From NCBI GenBank assembly GCA_029959195.1, contig CP114118.1, forward strand, positions 2,108,001-2,172,000: a stretch of DNA of 64,000 nt, read 5' to 3'. Under the pieces are notes generated by a model, which saw nothing but the letters and a program-made list of their open reading frames with translations, made no database searches and was not told where the DNA came from. Source of the DNA: Dictyophora rubrovolvata. Lineage: Eukaryota; Basidiomycota; Agaricomycetes; Phallales; Phallaceae. Numbering within the stretch: position 1 is the stretch's first letter; every line of letters begins with the position of its first letter. Shown here in pieces: positions 30,922-36,556 of the stretch. The translations under genes were made by a program, and so were the position numbers.

Positions 30922-33900
30922 ATGTCGTCAGGAGATGAGGAGTACAATAGATCTGGTACGGGCGACGATTTTGTCAAGGCCCAAAAAAAGGGGAGAGTTG
31001 GCAGAGCCTGTGATACTTGTCGTCGGAAAAAAAGTGCGTGTCCCTAGACCTTGCACAGTTTTCGGTTCCCTGACTTCTTTGTTTAATCAATCTTCTGCAG
31101 TTCGCTGTAAGTAGTCCTTTGCTGGGTCCTTTGTGCGATCGATGTAGCTGATGGCCGCGATTTCCAGGCGATTACGCCTCAAACCCGGATCGGAAATGTT
31201 CTAATTGCGCTGCCTACAATCTCGACTGTACGTATCTTGAAGCCGCTAAGGTAAGAGGCACAGTCAATAAACATTCCTAAGGCTTGTGAATGATGCCACT
31301 GTTTTGCAGAAACGCGGACCGCCAAAAGGGTATGTCGAGAATCTCGAGACTCGCTTGCGAAAGATGGAGACTCTCCTACAACGTGTAGGTTCTTGATACA
31401 GCTGAAATCGTATTATAAAACATTCTGACTTTTGTCTAACATAGCTATGTCCAGACGCAGACTTCACCCAGGAACTAGGCGTAAGCATGGATAGGGAGAC
31501 TTGGTGGAATGAGCGCAATAATCCTAATGGAAATGCGGCCTTGTCCACTAACCTCCCACTGGCTCCGATCAAAAAACCTTCCGGAAACAAGAGGAAAGGG
31601 GGTCAGGCTGCCTCTCGTAACAACAATGGAAATGCCTCTGAAGACAATATCAGCGATGACGAGTCCGTCTTGCCTCCACTTTCGGAAGGAATTCAGAAGC
31701 TTTCCGTTGGCTCTATGGACCGCCGTTTTCATGGGAAGTCTAGTGGCCTTGTCTTGGTGAGAACAGCAATGGACATGAAAAGAGAGATGATAGGAAGAGA
31801 TAGCACATCCCCTGGAGAATCACGAAAATCTTATGATTGGCAAGAGGTAAATATTTTTGTTATTACGCTTTAACCGAGTAGCTAATTTTGCCGCTTTAGT
31901 GGGAAAACAAACGTACCCCCGACACGATTACTTTCGATTTCCCTCCGCCCGACCTTATGATGTCTCTTATCCAATTGTATTTTTCACAGAACAATCTTTA
32001 CCTTCCTCTTCTTCATCGACCGACTTTTGAAAAGCAACTCCAGAGTGGACTTCACCTTCGAGATTCCGGATTCGCTTGTGTTCTTCTATTAGTGTGTGCA
32101 GTTGCGTCTCGTTTTTCTGATGACCCCCGTGTTCTCCTGTCCGATTCAACTATCGATCATGAAAAGATACCGTCGCAACAATCAGCCGGTTGGAAGTACT
32201 TTGATCAAGTACAGATGCAGAGGAAGTCTTTAATTACCCCAGTATCGCTGCACGATCTTCAGCAGTATGCAGTACGTTATTTACTTTTGAAAGTTTCAAG
32301 TGAACTAAACATTTTCCTTTAGCTTTCCGGAATATTCCTTCATGGATCTGCCGCTCCTTATGCTAGTTGGGTCACTGTTGGCATAGGCCTTCGTGTAGCA
32401 CAGGACGTAGGAGCTCATCGGAAACGAAACGAACCGGTAACGGTTGAATCTGAACTATGGAAACGTGCATTTTGGTAATAGAAATTCTGTCGTTCGGTGA
32501 TTGGTGTACTGATTTTGTCTTACAGGGTATTGGTTAACCTTGATAGACTGAGCAGCGCTGCTTTAGGGCGGCCATGTGCGATACATGACGAAGAGTGCGC
32601 TGTTCTCCCTCATTAAACTTCTAATATTGACTTACTAAGCGCAGTTTTGATCTCGATCCTCCTCTTGAGGTCGACGACGAATACTGGGAGAACCCCGTCC
32701 CCGAAAACGCCTTTCGACAACCTCCAGATAAACCATCCAGTGTAGCGTTCTTCAACTCCTTAATCAAACTTGATCAAATGCTTTCCTTTGCTTTGAGAAC
32801 AATTGTACGTCGTCGCTTTTTTTTAAAAGGAATGTATATCTCATGAAAATATGTAGTATTCTATCAATAAATCCAAAATAATTGGCGTTAGCGGAGAAAA
32901 TAACTGGGCTCAAGATACCGTGGCTGAATTGGATACAATGTTGAATAAATGGATTACGACAGTCCCTGATCACCGTAGGTGTTAAACTTGATAAACTGAG
33001 AATCATTTCTCACACCGGGTTCAGTACGCTGGGAGCCGAGTACCCCATCGGATTACTCGACTTTGTCTCAACAATCAGCCATTCTTTATGCAACTTACTA
33101 TTATATCCAAATTTTAGTTCATCGGCCTTTTATTCCCCGTCCTGGCAAACCCGCCCCGCTATCATATCCCTCTCTGGACATATGTACTAATGCTGCTAGA
33201 TCATGCGGGCAAGTGCTCGAAGCCTATCGCAGGAATTGCGATATAGGTTCTGCTCCGTTTCTTATGTTCTATGCATTTACATCCGGTCTTGTTTCCTTAT
33301 TGAATATCTGGGGAATGCGCAAGCAAGGCGCAGAGAATAACCCTGATCTTCCAATGCAAGATGTTCACAGGTGCATGCAATATCTGAAAATTGCACAAAA
33401 CAAGTACGAAATTCTCATGGATGCCTGTCAAGTTGATTTGACTTTGTTGACATTTTCTATTAGATGGCATCTTGCGGGTCGATTATGGTTGGTCTATCAA
33501 TTCGCTCTTCCGATGAATAACACCTGATCTTCTTTGTAGTGAGATACTTTGTGAGCTTGCATCTGCAGGAGATTTCCCTCTCCCTCAGCCGAGCCCTGTA
33601 TACCAGAACAACAAACGAGAACACAACTGCGATAATCCGAAGCCAGTTCCTGGATTCCCGCCGCCGAATGCTCCGATAAATGCGGTGCAAACGGTTCCTC
33701 ATATCTCACGACCAGTCCGGAACAGACCCATCCGAGGTGTGCCTACGCCAACAATGATGGAAGGAGTTTCTCAGCTGCCGATTAATACTCCACCCCAGCT
33801 CGGCAATTTACCTGTGTATCCGGAGAGACATGCATTTGTTCCAAATGTTCCAAATGCAGATATCCAAGTAGAAAGTGGAAACATGGGCGCCGTGCCATGG

Positions 33901-34304
33901 TACGCACAATCAATGAACGGTGGTCAGCAGCAGCAACAACAACAACCGCCGACGTTTCAGCCGCCGCTCGTGTCATTTTTCGAGACGGATAATCCACAAA
34001 ATTATAATTCTGTAGCAGAGACCTCGTTCCAGTCCGGAGGATTTCAGCCTGAATCTTCCACTCAACCTGGTTTTATGGACCTAAACCAAGGATTTCCAAA
34101 CAACGAGCAGAACCCTTCTTGGGGAGTTAATGGCGTCACCTTAAACATGTGGTCAATGGCGCCGTCGGGTTTTGAGTGAGTAGTACGATCGAGATCGCAT
34201 AACTTGACGTGTTCTAATTGAAGCATAGATGCGAGGATTGGAATCATTTCGTAACAAATATAGCTCCTGGTTCTCGACCAGAAGATCAACATCCCGCAAG
34301 GTAA
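30922..34304 (+). CDS. Zn2Cys6 fungal-specific transcription factor
   Basis: A Gal4-type zinc-cluster regulator. The DNA-binding domain reads CDTCRRKKIRC, a nine-residue loop, then CSNCAAYNLDC: six Cys in the usual spacing. A basic linker (KKRGPPKGYVENLETRLRK) and a short coiled-coil segment follow. The central Fungal_trans domain spans about residues 200-560 (PPPDLMMSLIQLYFSQNN, LYLPLLHRPTFEKQL, WVTVGIGLRVAQDVGAHRK, LWKRAFWVLVNLDRLSSAALGRP). The C-terminus is Pro/Gln-rich with a Q run, a likely activation region, and ends HFVTNIAPGSRPEDQHPAR. Exon 2 (31101-31106) is only 6 nt and codes for the I-R-C of the zinc cluster with its neighbours. The target genes are unknown; the gene is tail to tail with galactokinase, 225 bp away. 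Confidence 0.9.
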
Positions 34305-34529
34305 AAAGCAACCTTGACTTTTCGGACTTCAATGTTACTCGCGTACACGGACAATCATGCGCTCCACAATTTATATAATATGCACGTTTTCGGACGATTT
34401 ATTCAACCTAGTCAAGTAGACTGTTATGATTGCTATCCATTGTTTGGTTATATACGTGATAATTTCATTTAATTTAATGTCGCAGAGCCACTGAAGGACT
34501 ACGTTACATCCATGCGTCTTTCTTCTTCT

Positions 34530-36556
34530 TCAAAGTTTGTAAACTAAGACGTAATATAAGTATGTGTATTAGCCACAAACAAATTGGGGATGGCCTCATA
34601 CCCGAAGCTCCTTCGCTCGGTTTGGTTGCAAAAATCACCTCATGCAACTGTTCAGCCGTCAAACCTTTATGGGGACCGTAAGTCTGGCCGATCATTTGGA
34701 TGAAGGCCTCGACTTGGTCTTCCGGTACGAGTGAAACGGTGCACCCACCCCAACCAGCACCAGTTAGACGACTACCGTAGGCACCTGCCTCGCGAGCAAG
34801 TCGTGTCAGCTCATCTAGTTCCGCGCACGAACATTGGAAGAGCTGAGCACAACTTGCTTGAGATTCATTCATCAATCTGCCTAGCTCATGTAATACTTCC
34901 GGAGAGGTTTCTTCTCTCAAGCATAGTTCTCGGAACTGGAGAACGCGCAAGGCTTCAGTGAAAACGTGAAGTGCGCGTTTATATAGTTGAAAGCGGACCG
35001 CTTCGACTGTTTTAATCTCTTTGAGAACGGGACATAATGGAAACATATAGAGGGGAACGAGGGCTCACCCTCAATCCAAGACAGAAATAACTCGTGAAAC
35101 CCTTCTGATGTTAGACCAGACGCTTCTACCATCTCCTCAAGGGTGAAACCGTTGTCAGGATCGCCCTTTTTGAGACTATCAACTTCCAAAATGATGCGTT
35201 CCAAACCTTTAGAAAGTTCCGCGGGCGCTATTTCATCGCTATCCGAAAATCCACAGAATCGACCTAGCACTTGTTTTAACGTAAGTTTCTCCGTTTTCAG
35301 GACGGGAATGTTTAGATGACGCGCAAGGACCCGGGCAGCCACCAATGTTTCCAATACTCGAAGATTGTACCTGGACTTGGAAGATACCACTTTGTCAGCT
35401 ACAACGAGAGAATTCGCACAAACGAAGACGGCTTTGTGCGTTGTAACGGGAAGTGGAATAGGTTCAGCGGACAGTCGGGGATGAAATGTTATATACAGTG
35501 CAGAGTGAGCGTTGGAAATGACAGAAGCTGCTTGATCCATTCTGAGTTCAAATGAGTTTGCCGCTAAAACTAGGAAGTAAATGAACTACTCTACCCTCCA
35601 CTGTTGACCCCTTTTTCAAAAAGTTTCAGATTTTGATGGATGAAAAGCTGTGATTTGAAAGGGGAGACACCATTACTCACCTACCCGCCTTTCATTTTCC
35701 ATTGAAATTTCTACTAAAGATCCTTTGGTTACCTTGTCCAGTTTATTGTTCACGCTCAGGAAAGCCAGAGTGGAGGCTACGACCATAGCAGCACTTGAAC
35801 TTAGACCGGATCCCGCTGGAACAGTTCCAGTGACCAACATATCGCATCCAACGGGAAGACTAGATTTCTCTCGGAAAAAGTGGTCAAGGACGCCCTTCAA
35901 TCAAGAAATTTAGACCCCCCTTGCAAAAAAAACAAGCAAGCAAGCAAACCGTAAAAGACACAGTATATATACATACATAATATCCTGCTTTGACGTAGCT
36001 TTCCCACCTTAGCTGTGTTTTATCGATTTCGATATACCAATCACTTGACGGGTCAAATACTGGGGTAAAAGATTGTCTTTCGTATTTGGTATCCAAATTG
36101 TCAATCACGACGTGTCCTGAAGAGTCGCCCTCTCTGGGAGCACATGCAATTAGAATATCGCGTTCGATGGCAGCAGGAAATACGCCGAACAGCGCATAGT
36201 CGATGTGTTCCCCTGGATTTTTTGAGTAAAAATAATTGATTTACGAGAAGAAATTCAGAATACCTATAAGATTAACTCTTCCTGGGGCTCGGGCTATAAA
36301 TGTCTACAAAACATGAAGTATGGGACCACTCGTTCGGTAAAAGAGAAAATTATTTTACAGGCTTCCGATGAAAGATTCCCTCAAATTCAGAAATGAGATG
36401 GTTCCATCTCAAACTAGAAAAAAATAATTGACTCTCGTATTAGAAGCTTATCCGACTACTAGTAGGCGCTAACCTAGTTTTCAAGGCAACGCTGACATCG
36501 CCGCCGTGCACTTTGTCCAAAGCAGAGAACACTGGAATGGGAAGAGACGCAGCCAT
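34530..36556 (-). CDS. GAL1: Galactokinase
   Basis: A GHMP kinase that phosphorylates galactose to galactose-1-phosphate, the first committed Leloir step. Nine exons: complement of 36474-36556, 36359-36413, 36264-36303, 35977-36212, 35681-35894, 35595-35610, 35069-35541, 34602-35006 and 34530-34543, 511 aa. Seen: galactokinase signature GRVNLIGEHIDY, GHMP P-loop GTVPAGSGLSSSAAMVVAS, catalytic-Asp motif GVNSGGMDQ, and C-terminal GSRLTGAGWGGCTVSLV. The 16-nt exon 6 supplies G-V-N-S-G of the catalytic motif; omitting it loses the frame and the motif. The last exon is 14 nt. There is no yeast-GAL3-like deletion of the SAA residues, so catalysis is expected. It is divergent from aldose 1-epimerase on a 203-bp promoter. 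Confidence 0.96.

Follow-up and report, generated by a model that had tools for sequence, protein, structure and literature searches.

A predicted six-base exon that completes the zinc cluster of a putative regulator in Dictyophora rubrovolvata

An exon of six nucleotides appears to complete the DNA-binding domain of a putative transcription factor in the basidiomycete Dictyophora rubrovolvata. This raises the question of whether so small an exon is real and, if so, whether it is always included in the transcript or serves as a splicing switch, as a preliminary description of the locus had proposed. We analysed a stretch of 64,000 nt of contig CP114118.1 (positions 2,108,001 to 2,172,000; hereafter the window, in whose coordinates the gene is described) and scanned the genome, 28.2 Mb in 11 contigs. 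The genome contains at least 144 matches to DUF6533, a family expanded in Agaricomycetes, a count in keeping with an Agaricomycete though no proof of one.

The gene (30922-34179, + strand) comprises 12 exons that, in spliced translation, form a single open frame of 883 amino acids. Its 11 introns are 50 to 67 nt each. The features are as follows, together with one rival intron:

30922-31033, + strand: exon 1, from the start codon to RRKK and the first base of an Ile codon, with Cys1 and Cys2 (CDTC); assigned from the spliced translation and the Zn_clus match.
31034-31100, + strand: intron 1, 67 nt, GTGCGT...CTGCAG, with a branch-like CTGAC at 31070.
31101-31106, + strand: microexon TTCGCT, 6 nt, supplying the final two bases of Ile, an Arg codon and the first base of Cys3.
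31107-31167, + strand: intron 2, 61 nt, GTAAGT...TTTCCAG, with a branch-like CTGAT at 31148.
31168-31250, + strand: exon 3, completing Cys3 and carrying Cys4 to Cys6; assigned from the spliced translation and Pfam.
31310-31384, + strand: exon 4, most of the linker and the heptad-like stretch (GYVENLETRLRKMETLLQR; heptads by eye).
31445-31846, 31900-32271, 32323-32474 and 32526-32594, + strand: exons 5-8, from the spliced translation.
32645-32804, 32857-32974, 33025-33487 and 33540-34179, + strand: exons 9-12, from the spliced translation.
31445-34179, + strand: exons 5-12 together, the Fungal_trans domain and C-terminal tail, with TGA at 34177-34179.
31040-31167, + strand: rival single intron, 128 nt, donor GTCCCT, giving RRKKSAC without the microexon; judged unlikely.

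The Zn2Cys6 binuclear cluster is defined by six cysteines in the pattern CX2CX6C ... CX2CX6C, which was found in the spliced protein. In Pfam searches with the whole protein, Zn_clus (PF00172) matched residues 28-68 with 38.3 bits (cut-off 21), and Fungal_trans (PF04082) matched residues 250-503 with 94.5 bits, above its cut-off and covering positions 1-258 of 262. Gal4_dimer (PF03902) was below its cut-off (13.5 vs 22 bits), and a heptad-like stretch, VENLETRLRKMETLLQRL, was identified by eye. The top sequence matches among solved structures were Lac9, Gal4 and Ppr1 (PDB 3coq, 1d66, 1cld, 1pyi). The zinc clusters of these proteins align with that of the window gene and share its KK-hydrophobic-basic-Cys helix, in which the microexon residues IRC correspond to Gal4 L19-K20-C21. 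NCBIfam profiles gave no match, and one scan each of viral and of bacterial/archaeal contigs confirmed no relative. Most likely, the predicted product is an ordinary Zn2Cys6 transcription factor. Tail to tail with the gene, at 34504-35585 on the - strand, lie frames that resemble a galactokinase by their motif GAYGSRLTGAGWGGCTV. That such frames adjoin a Gal4-like regulator gene is probably coincidence.

The preliminary description placed the TTCGCT exon at 31101-31106 between introns of 67 and 61 nt, and the coordinates, lengths, phases and peptide were all reproduced. Its statement that the microexon starts a Cys codon is refined here: the exon gives the T alone, and exon 3 gives GC. Specifically, exon 1 ends ...CGT CGG AAA AAA A|GTGCGT at 31033, exon 3 opens with GCGATTAC at 31168, and the joined exons 1-3 read CDTCRRKKIRCDYASNPDRKCSNCAAYNLDCTY around the microexon, so that the spliced product of exon 1, TTCGCT and exon 3 is CDTCRRKKIRCD...CSNC...C. 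The splice sites are the donor AAAAAAA|GTGCGT at 31034, the acceptor CTGCAG at 31100, the donor GTAAGT at 31107 and the acceptor TTTCCAG at 31167; a branch-like CTRAY site is present in both flanking introns. With 6 nt and GT-AG introns on both sides, TTCGCT falls by sequence in the class of microexons, internal exons of at most 30 nt. As read, the junctions A|TTCGCT and GCT|GCG make no GT and both introns have complete sites, which is not the arrangement of a stwintron or of recursive splicing. Folding of the RNA across the microexon region gave nothing unusual (z 0.46).

Alternative splicings around the site were enumerated as stop-free combinations of GT-AG introns, one or two per form, with 35 nt as the minimum intron length. 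The C-X2-C-X6-C spacing was kept in 4 of the 29 open splicings obtained: the microexon form; exon 1 extended to 31039 and followed by one 128-nt intron (RRKKSAC); and two forms with an 18-nt exon at 31115-31132, reading RRKKILC and CDTCLLCWVLC (basic helix lost), each of which requires a second intron of 35 nt. Pfam scoring took in 7 of the 29 forms, CDTCLLCWVLC being left out, and for the N-terminal 79-88 residues Zn_clus gave 43.1 bits to the microexon form, 37.1 to RRKKSAC, 29.5 to RRKKILC and 26.1 to the form that skips the exon.

The DNA between the donor at 31034 and the acceptor at 31167 was also shuffled 100,000 times, preserving dinucleotides, keeping both sites and requiring introns of at least 45 nt. 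Success was scored as a microexon, at most 30 nt long and followed by a GTRNG donor, restoring CX2CX6C with [ILVMF][KR] before the Cys. An equally good microexon arose in 9 of the 100,000 shuffles, or in 142 with any GT as donor; without the demand for [ILVMF][KR], the Cys spacing was restored in 437 (GTRNG) and 4460 (any GT) per 100,000. At 9/100,000, a chance exon was judged unlikely. The acceptor-6nt-donor signature (window 31098-31112) had 33 matches genome-wide, vs 60 for the reversed pattern; since the signature is rarer than its reversed control, it says nothing about an exon unless the coding context is taken into account. Among the 32 other matches, none had CxxC[RK] within 140 nt upstream and four had CxxC downstream. 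The signature covers same-phase microexons; zinc-cluster microexons differing in length and phase were found in L054 and L060 (below). The 6-nt exon is credible because of its zinc-cluster context, and as far as sequence can show, it is real.

Very small exons have been described from fungi before, and a six-base exon on which a zinc cluster depends would join them. No earlier report of the TTCGCT microexon of this gene was found in the open-access microexon literature. In Xlr2 of Trichoderma virens, the zinc cluster is completed by a microexon of 20 nt whose inclusion is reported to depend on glucose; reads spanning exons 1 and 3 directly were absent, and most annotations lack the exon (PMC11121469). 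Like the window gene, Xlr2 encodes a Zn2Cys6/Fungal_trans regulator in which a microexon between introns completes the cluster. Unlike the window exon, that of Xlr2 has 20 nt, encodes PCRRCE with two Cys, does not preserve the frame and belongs to an ascomycete. Its alternative, as described there, consists of two separate transcripts. In P450 genes of Phanerochaete chrysosporium, the shortest exon is reported to be 6 bp (PMC1184071). As in the window gene, these microexons lie among short introns of a basidiomycete, but they come from genome analysis, belong to genes for enzymes and carry no zinc ligand. Exon II of rtnA, of 15 nt in Aspergillus niger and 33 nt in Neurospora crassa, is also small and a multiple of three, and it is described as skipped by way of an upstream stwintron (PMC6616335), whereas the window gene has no stwintron. 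Small plant microexons, of 15 nt or less, are likewise often missed by annotation; conservation across species is shown for them (PMC8831610), whereas the window microexon was examined in a single genome.

If the exon were regulated, this might be achieved mainly by intron retention, with a stop inside the zinc cluster and either destruction of the mRNA or a shorter protein, lacking the DNA-binding domain, made from Met86 or Met107. Both Met codons lie in frame downstream, and keeping either intron, the more frequent kind of event in fungi, indeed produces an early stop: retained intron 1 reads S-A-C-P-stop and retained intron 2 reads ...IRCK-stop, with K-stop after Cys3 (read by eye). Thus, two of the three simple splicing errors (either retention) truncate the protein, and the third, skipping, does not. 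Of coding splice events in Schizophyllum commune, 43-44% are intron retention and 1% exon skipping, although a separate count based on junctions alone lists 1,527 coding-region skips (PMC5034255). The short form of Xlr2 in Trichoderma comparably lacks the domain, and intron 1 is kept in some T. reesei transcripts (PMC11121469). On the other side, stops upon retention are common for fungal introns and no mark of regulation, and the splice sites of both introns are good. We consider regulation mainly by retention unlikely.

Two further zinc-cluster microexons were found in the genome, neither of a length divisible by three:

C1, about 494.4 kb, - strand: 13-nt microexon AAAACGAAAAATG of region L054 (from position 2090 of its reverse complement), encoding the helix KRKM (CLSCR KRKM KCD), between predicted introns of 69 and 83 nt.
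C7, about 1702.27 kb, - strand: 20-nt microexon of L060/L038, carrying Cys3 (CAECRR LKLRCD R), between predicted introns of 55 and 65 nt.

For L054, a single 152-nt intron giving CLSCRCVHAKCD was the rival, and the 13-nt exon was chosen after enumerating splicings. Including the window gene, 21 zinc clusters were resolved; 14 are interrupted by an intron somewhere within the span of their six Cys, and in 12 the Cys2-Cys3 helix is split by at least one. These introns are predicted from sequence with a splice score devised for this analysis, which rewards consensus sites, short introns and a Lys or Arg preceding Cys3. The Cys2-Cys3 segments held 14 introns in 441 nt, vs 5 in the other 1218 nt (binomial P 2.5e-5, about eightfold); without the window gene, the counts were 12 and 5 (P 1.9e-4). 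The census is biased in part, since a PF00172 match depends on an uninterrupted stretch and only clusters with Cys1-Cys2 intact were admitted. Restricting it to 14 clusters with less bias, of which 13 came from PF04082 matches (window gene included) and one, L048, from a protein search, gave counts of 11 vs 4 (P 1.7e-4), or 9 vs 4 without the window gene (P 1.4e-3). The Cys2-Cys3 introns lie 14, 16, 17, 24, 25, 27, 29, 30 and 31 nt from Cys1, and such scattered positions suggest several independent insertions or slides and not a single old intron. In 9 of the 15 introns tabulated, a G immediately precedes the donor.

Five of the 21 clusters were below the score threshold: L050, L059 and L061 were accepted on reading the sequence, L054 after the enumeration and L104 on the scoring output alone. 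The motif resolved no cluster in L051, L056, L057, L062, L065, L100, L102, L103 or L105; L057 and L065, whose C..CK motifs are unbroken and have a longer spacer, were excluded. The Zn_clus match at C7:1705148, inside L060, was likewise not resolved or counted, and two pairs of regions overlap (L067 with L055, L008 with L105). Titles and abstract beginnings in the open-access literature yielded no report of a helix-intron hotspot in zinc clusters. It is very unlikely, in our estimate, that the recognition-helix codons are an intron hotspot in this lineage and that microexons of 6, 13 and 20 nt make the DNA binding of several regulators dependent on the accurate splicing of very small exons. Were this true, several regulators could be put out of action at once by a change in splicing efficiency common to them.

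The preliminary description had further proposed that skipping of the exon yields a dominant-negative isoform. The arithmetic of this proposal held: the join of exon 1 to exon 3 is open to the end of the protein, reads RRKK-S-DYA and keeps five of the six zinc-ligand Cys, the third being missing. Given the role of the six ligands, loss of Cys3 would be expected to kill the DNA-binding domain of this form, as predicted from the DNA. The heptad-like stretch and the Fungal_trans domain would stay in the skipped protein, which could conceivably dimerise while unable to bind DNA, and skipping of a 15-nt exon is documented in A. niger rtnA (PMC6616335). The skipped form still passes the Zn_clus cut-off (26.1 vs 21 bits), and domain annotation would therefore not show the defect.

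The in-frame loss of Cys3 thus stands, but the regulated switch built on it is not supported. A direct skip requires an intron of 134 nt, longer than all 28 predicted introns compared (47-123 nt), although the search for the 17 of them that lie in other genes was limited to 180 nt and penalised length. Skipping leaves the frame intact when an exon's length is divisible by three, a property expected by chance in one case out of three, and one of the three zinc-cluster microexons found in the genome has it (6 nt; the others 13 and 20 nt). These three cases, a small number, show no sign of selection for skippable exons. Moreover, skipping in rtnA works through a stwintron by which a donor is re-formed, and here no GT arises at either junction; the Xlr2 microexon is without exon 1-3 reads (PMC11121469); and skipping is rare in Schizophyllum, at the 1% of coding splice events given above (PMC5034255). 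The switch is a conjecture with weak prior support. We hold it highly improbable that some condition causes the six-base exon to be left out and that the resulting full-length protein, its zinc cluster dead, pairs with the normal form and blocks it.

A serious rival overlooked by the preliminary description dispenses with the microexon altogether: exon 1 would run to 31039 and the single intron 31040-31167 would be removed, giving RRKKSACD with all six Cys. The frame is open, the Cys spacing is correct and, at the 37.1 bits noted above, the form passes Zn_clus, yet its donor is very poor. GTCCCT has C at +3 and +5, as does none of the 27 donors compared, 16 of which were picked with a score disfavouring C at these positions (the L104 donor GTAGTT, outside the 27, has no C there either). 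The form also puts Ala before Cys3, where Lys/Arg stands in 21 of 21 resolved clusters, including all seven without a cluster intron, for which no splicing choice was involved. It scores 6 bits below the microexon form, and its 128-nt intron exceeds all 28 introns compared, the longest of which has 123 nt. We regard it as extremely improbable.

From the frame, the quality of the splice sites, the restored domain and the intron positions predicted elsewhere, we infer that the six-base exon is likely to be normally always included, as a constitutive product of dense intron gain. This reading draws on the restored motif with its 43.1 bits, the 9/100,000 shuffles, good donors, CAG acceptors and branch-like sites, and further on the helix-split clusters (12/21), the two additional microexons, the unremarkable RNA fold, the 6-bp exon of Phanerochaete (PMC1184071) and the 1% share of skipping in Schizophyllum (PMC5034255). 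Against it stand the reported glucose dependence of Xlr2 (PMC11121469) and the skipping of rtnA (PMC6616335), which indicate that small-exon regulation occurs in fungi. Under constitutive inclusion, the DNA-binding domain would be split by two short introns 6 nt apart, each probably recognised on its own by intron definition. Because 6 nt cannot accommodate two splice-site complexes simultaneously, the two introns are likely to be removed one after another. The arrangement most likely originated by intron gain or sliding in the Lys/Arg-rich helix codons, which appear to be a favoured intron place in this genome.

If splicing of the window microexon were regulated, it would provide a further fungal case after Xlr2. 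If the exon is constitutive, it offers a clear case of six bases on which a DNA-binding domain depends, and it cautions that zinc clusters in fungi of this kind may be missed or broken by gene predictors. Should the concentration of introns in the helix hold in other genomes and with transcripts, it would point to an undercounting of Zn2Cys6 regulators in mushroom fungi and to the helix codons as preferred sites of intron insertion.
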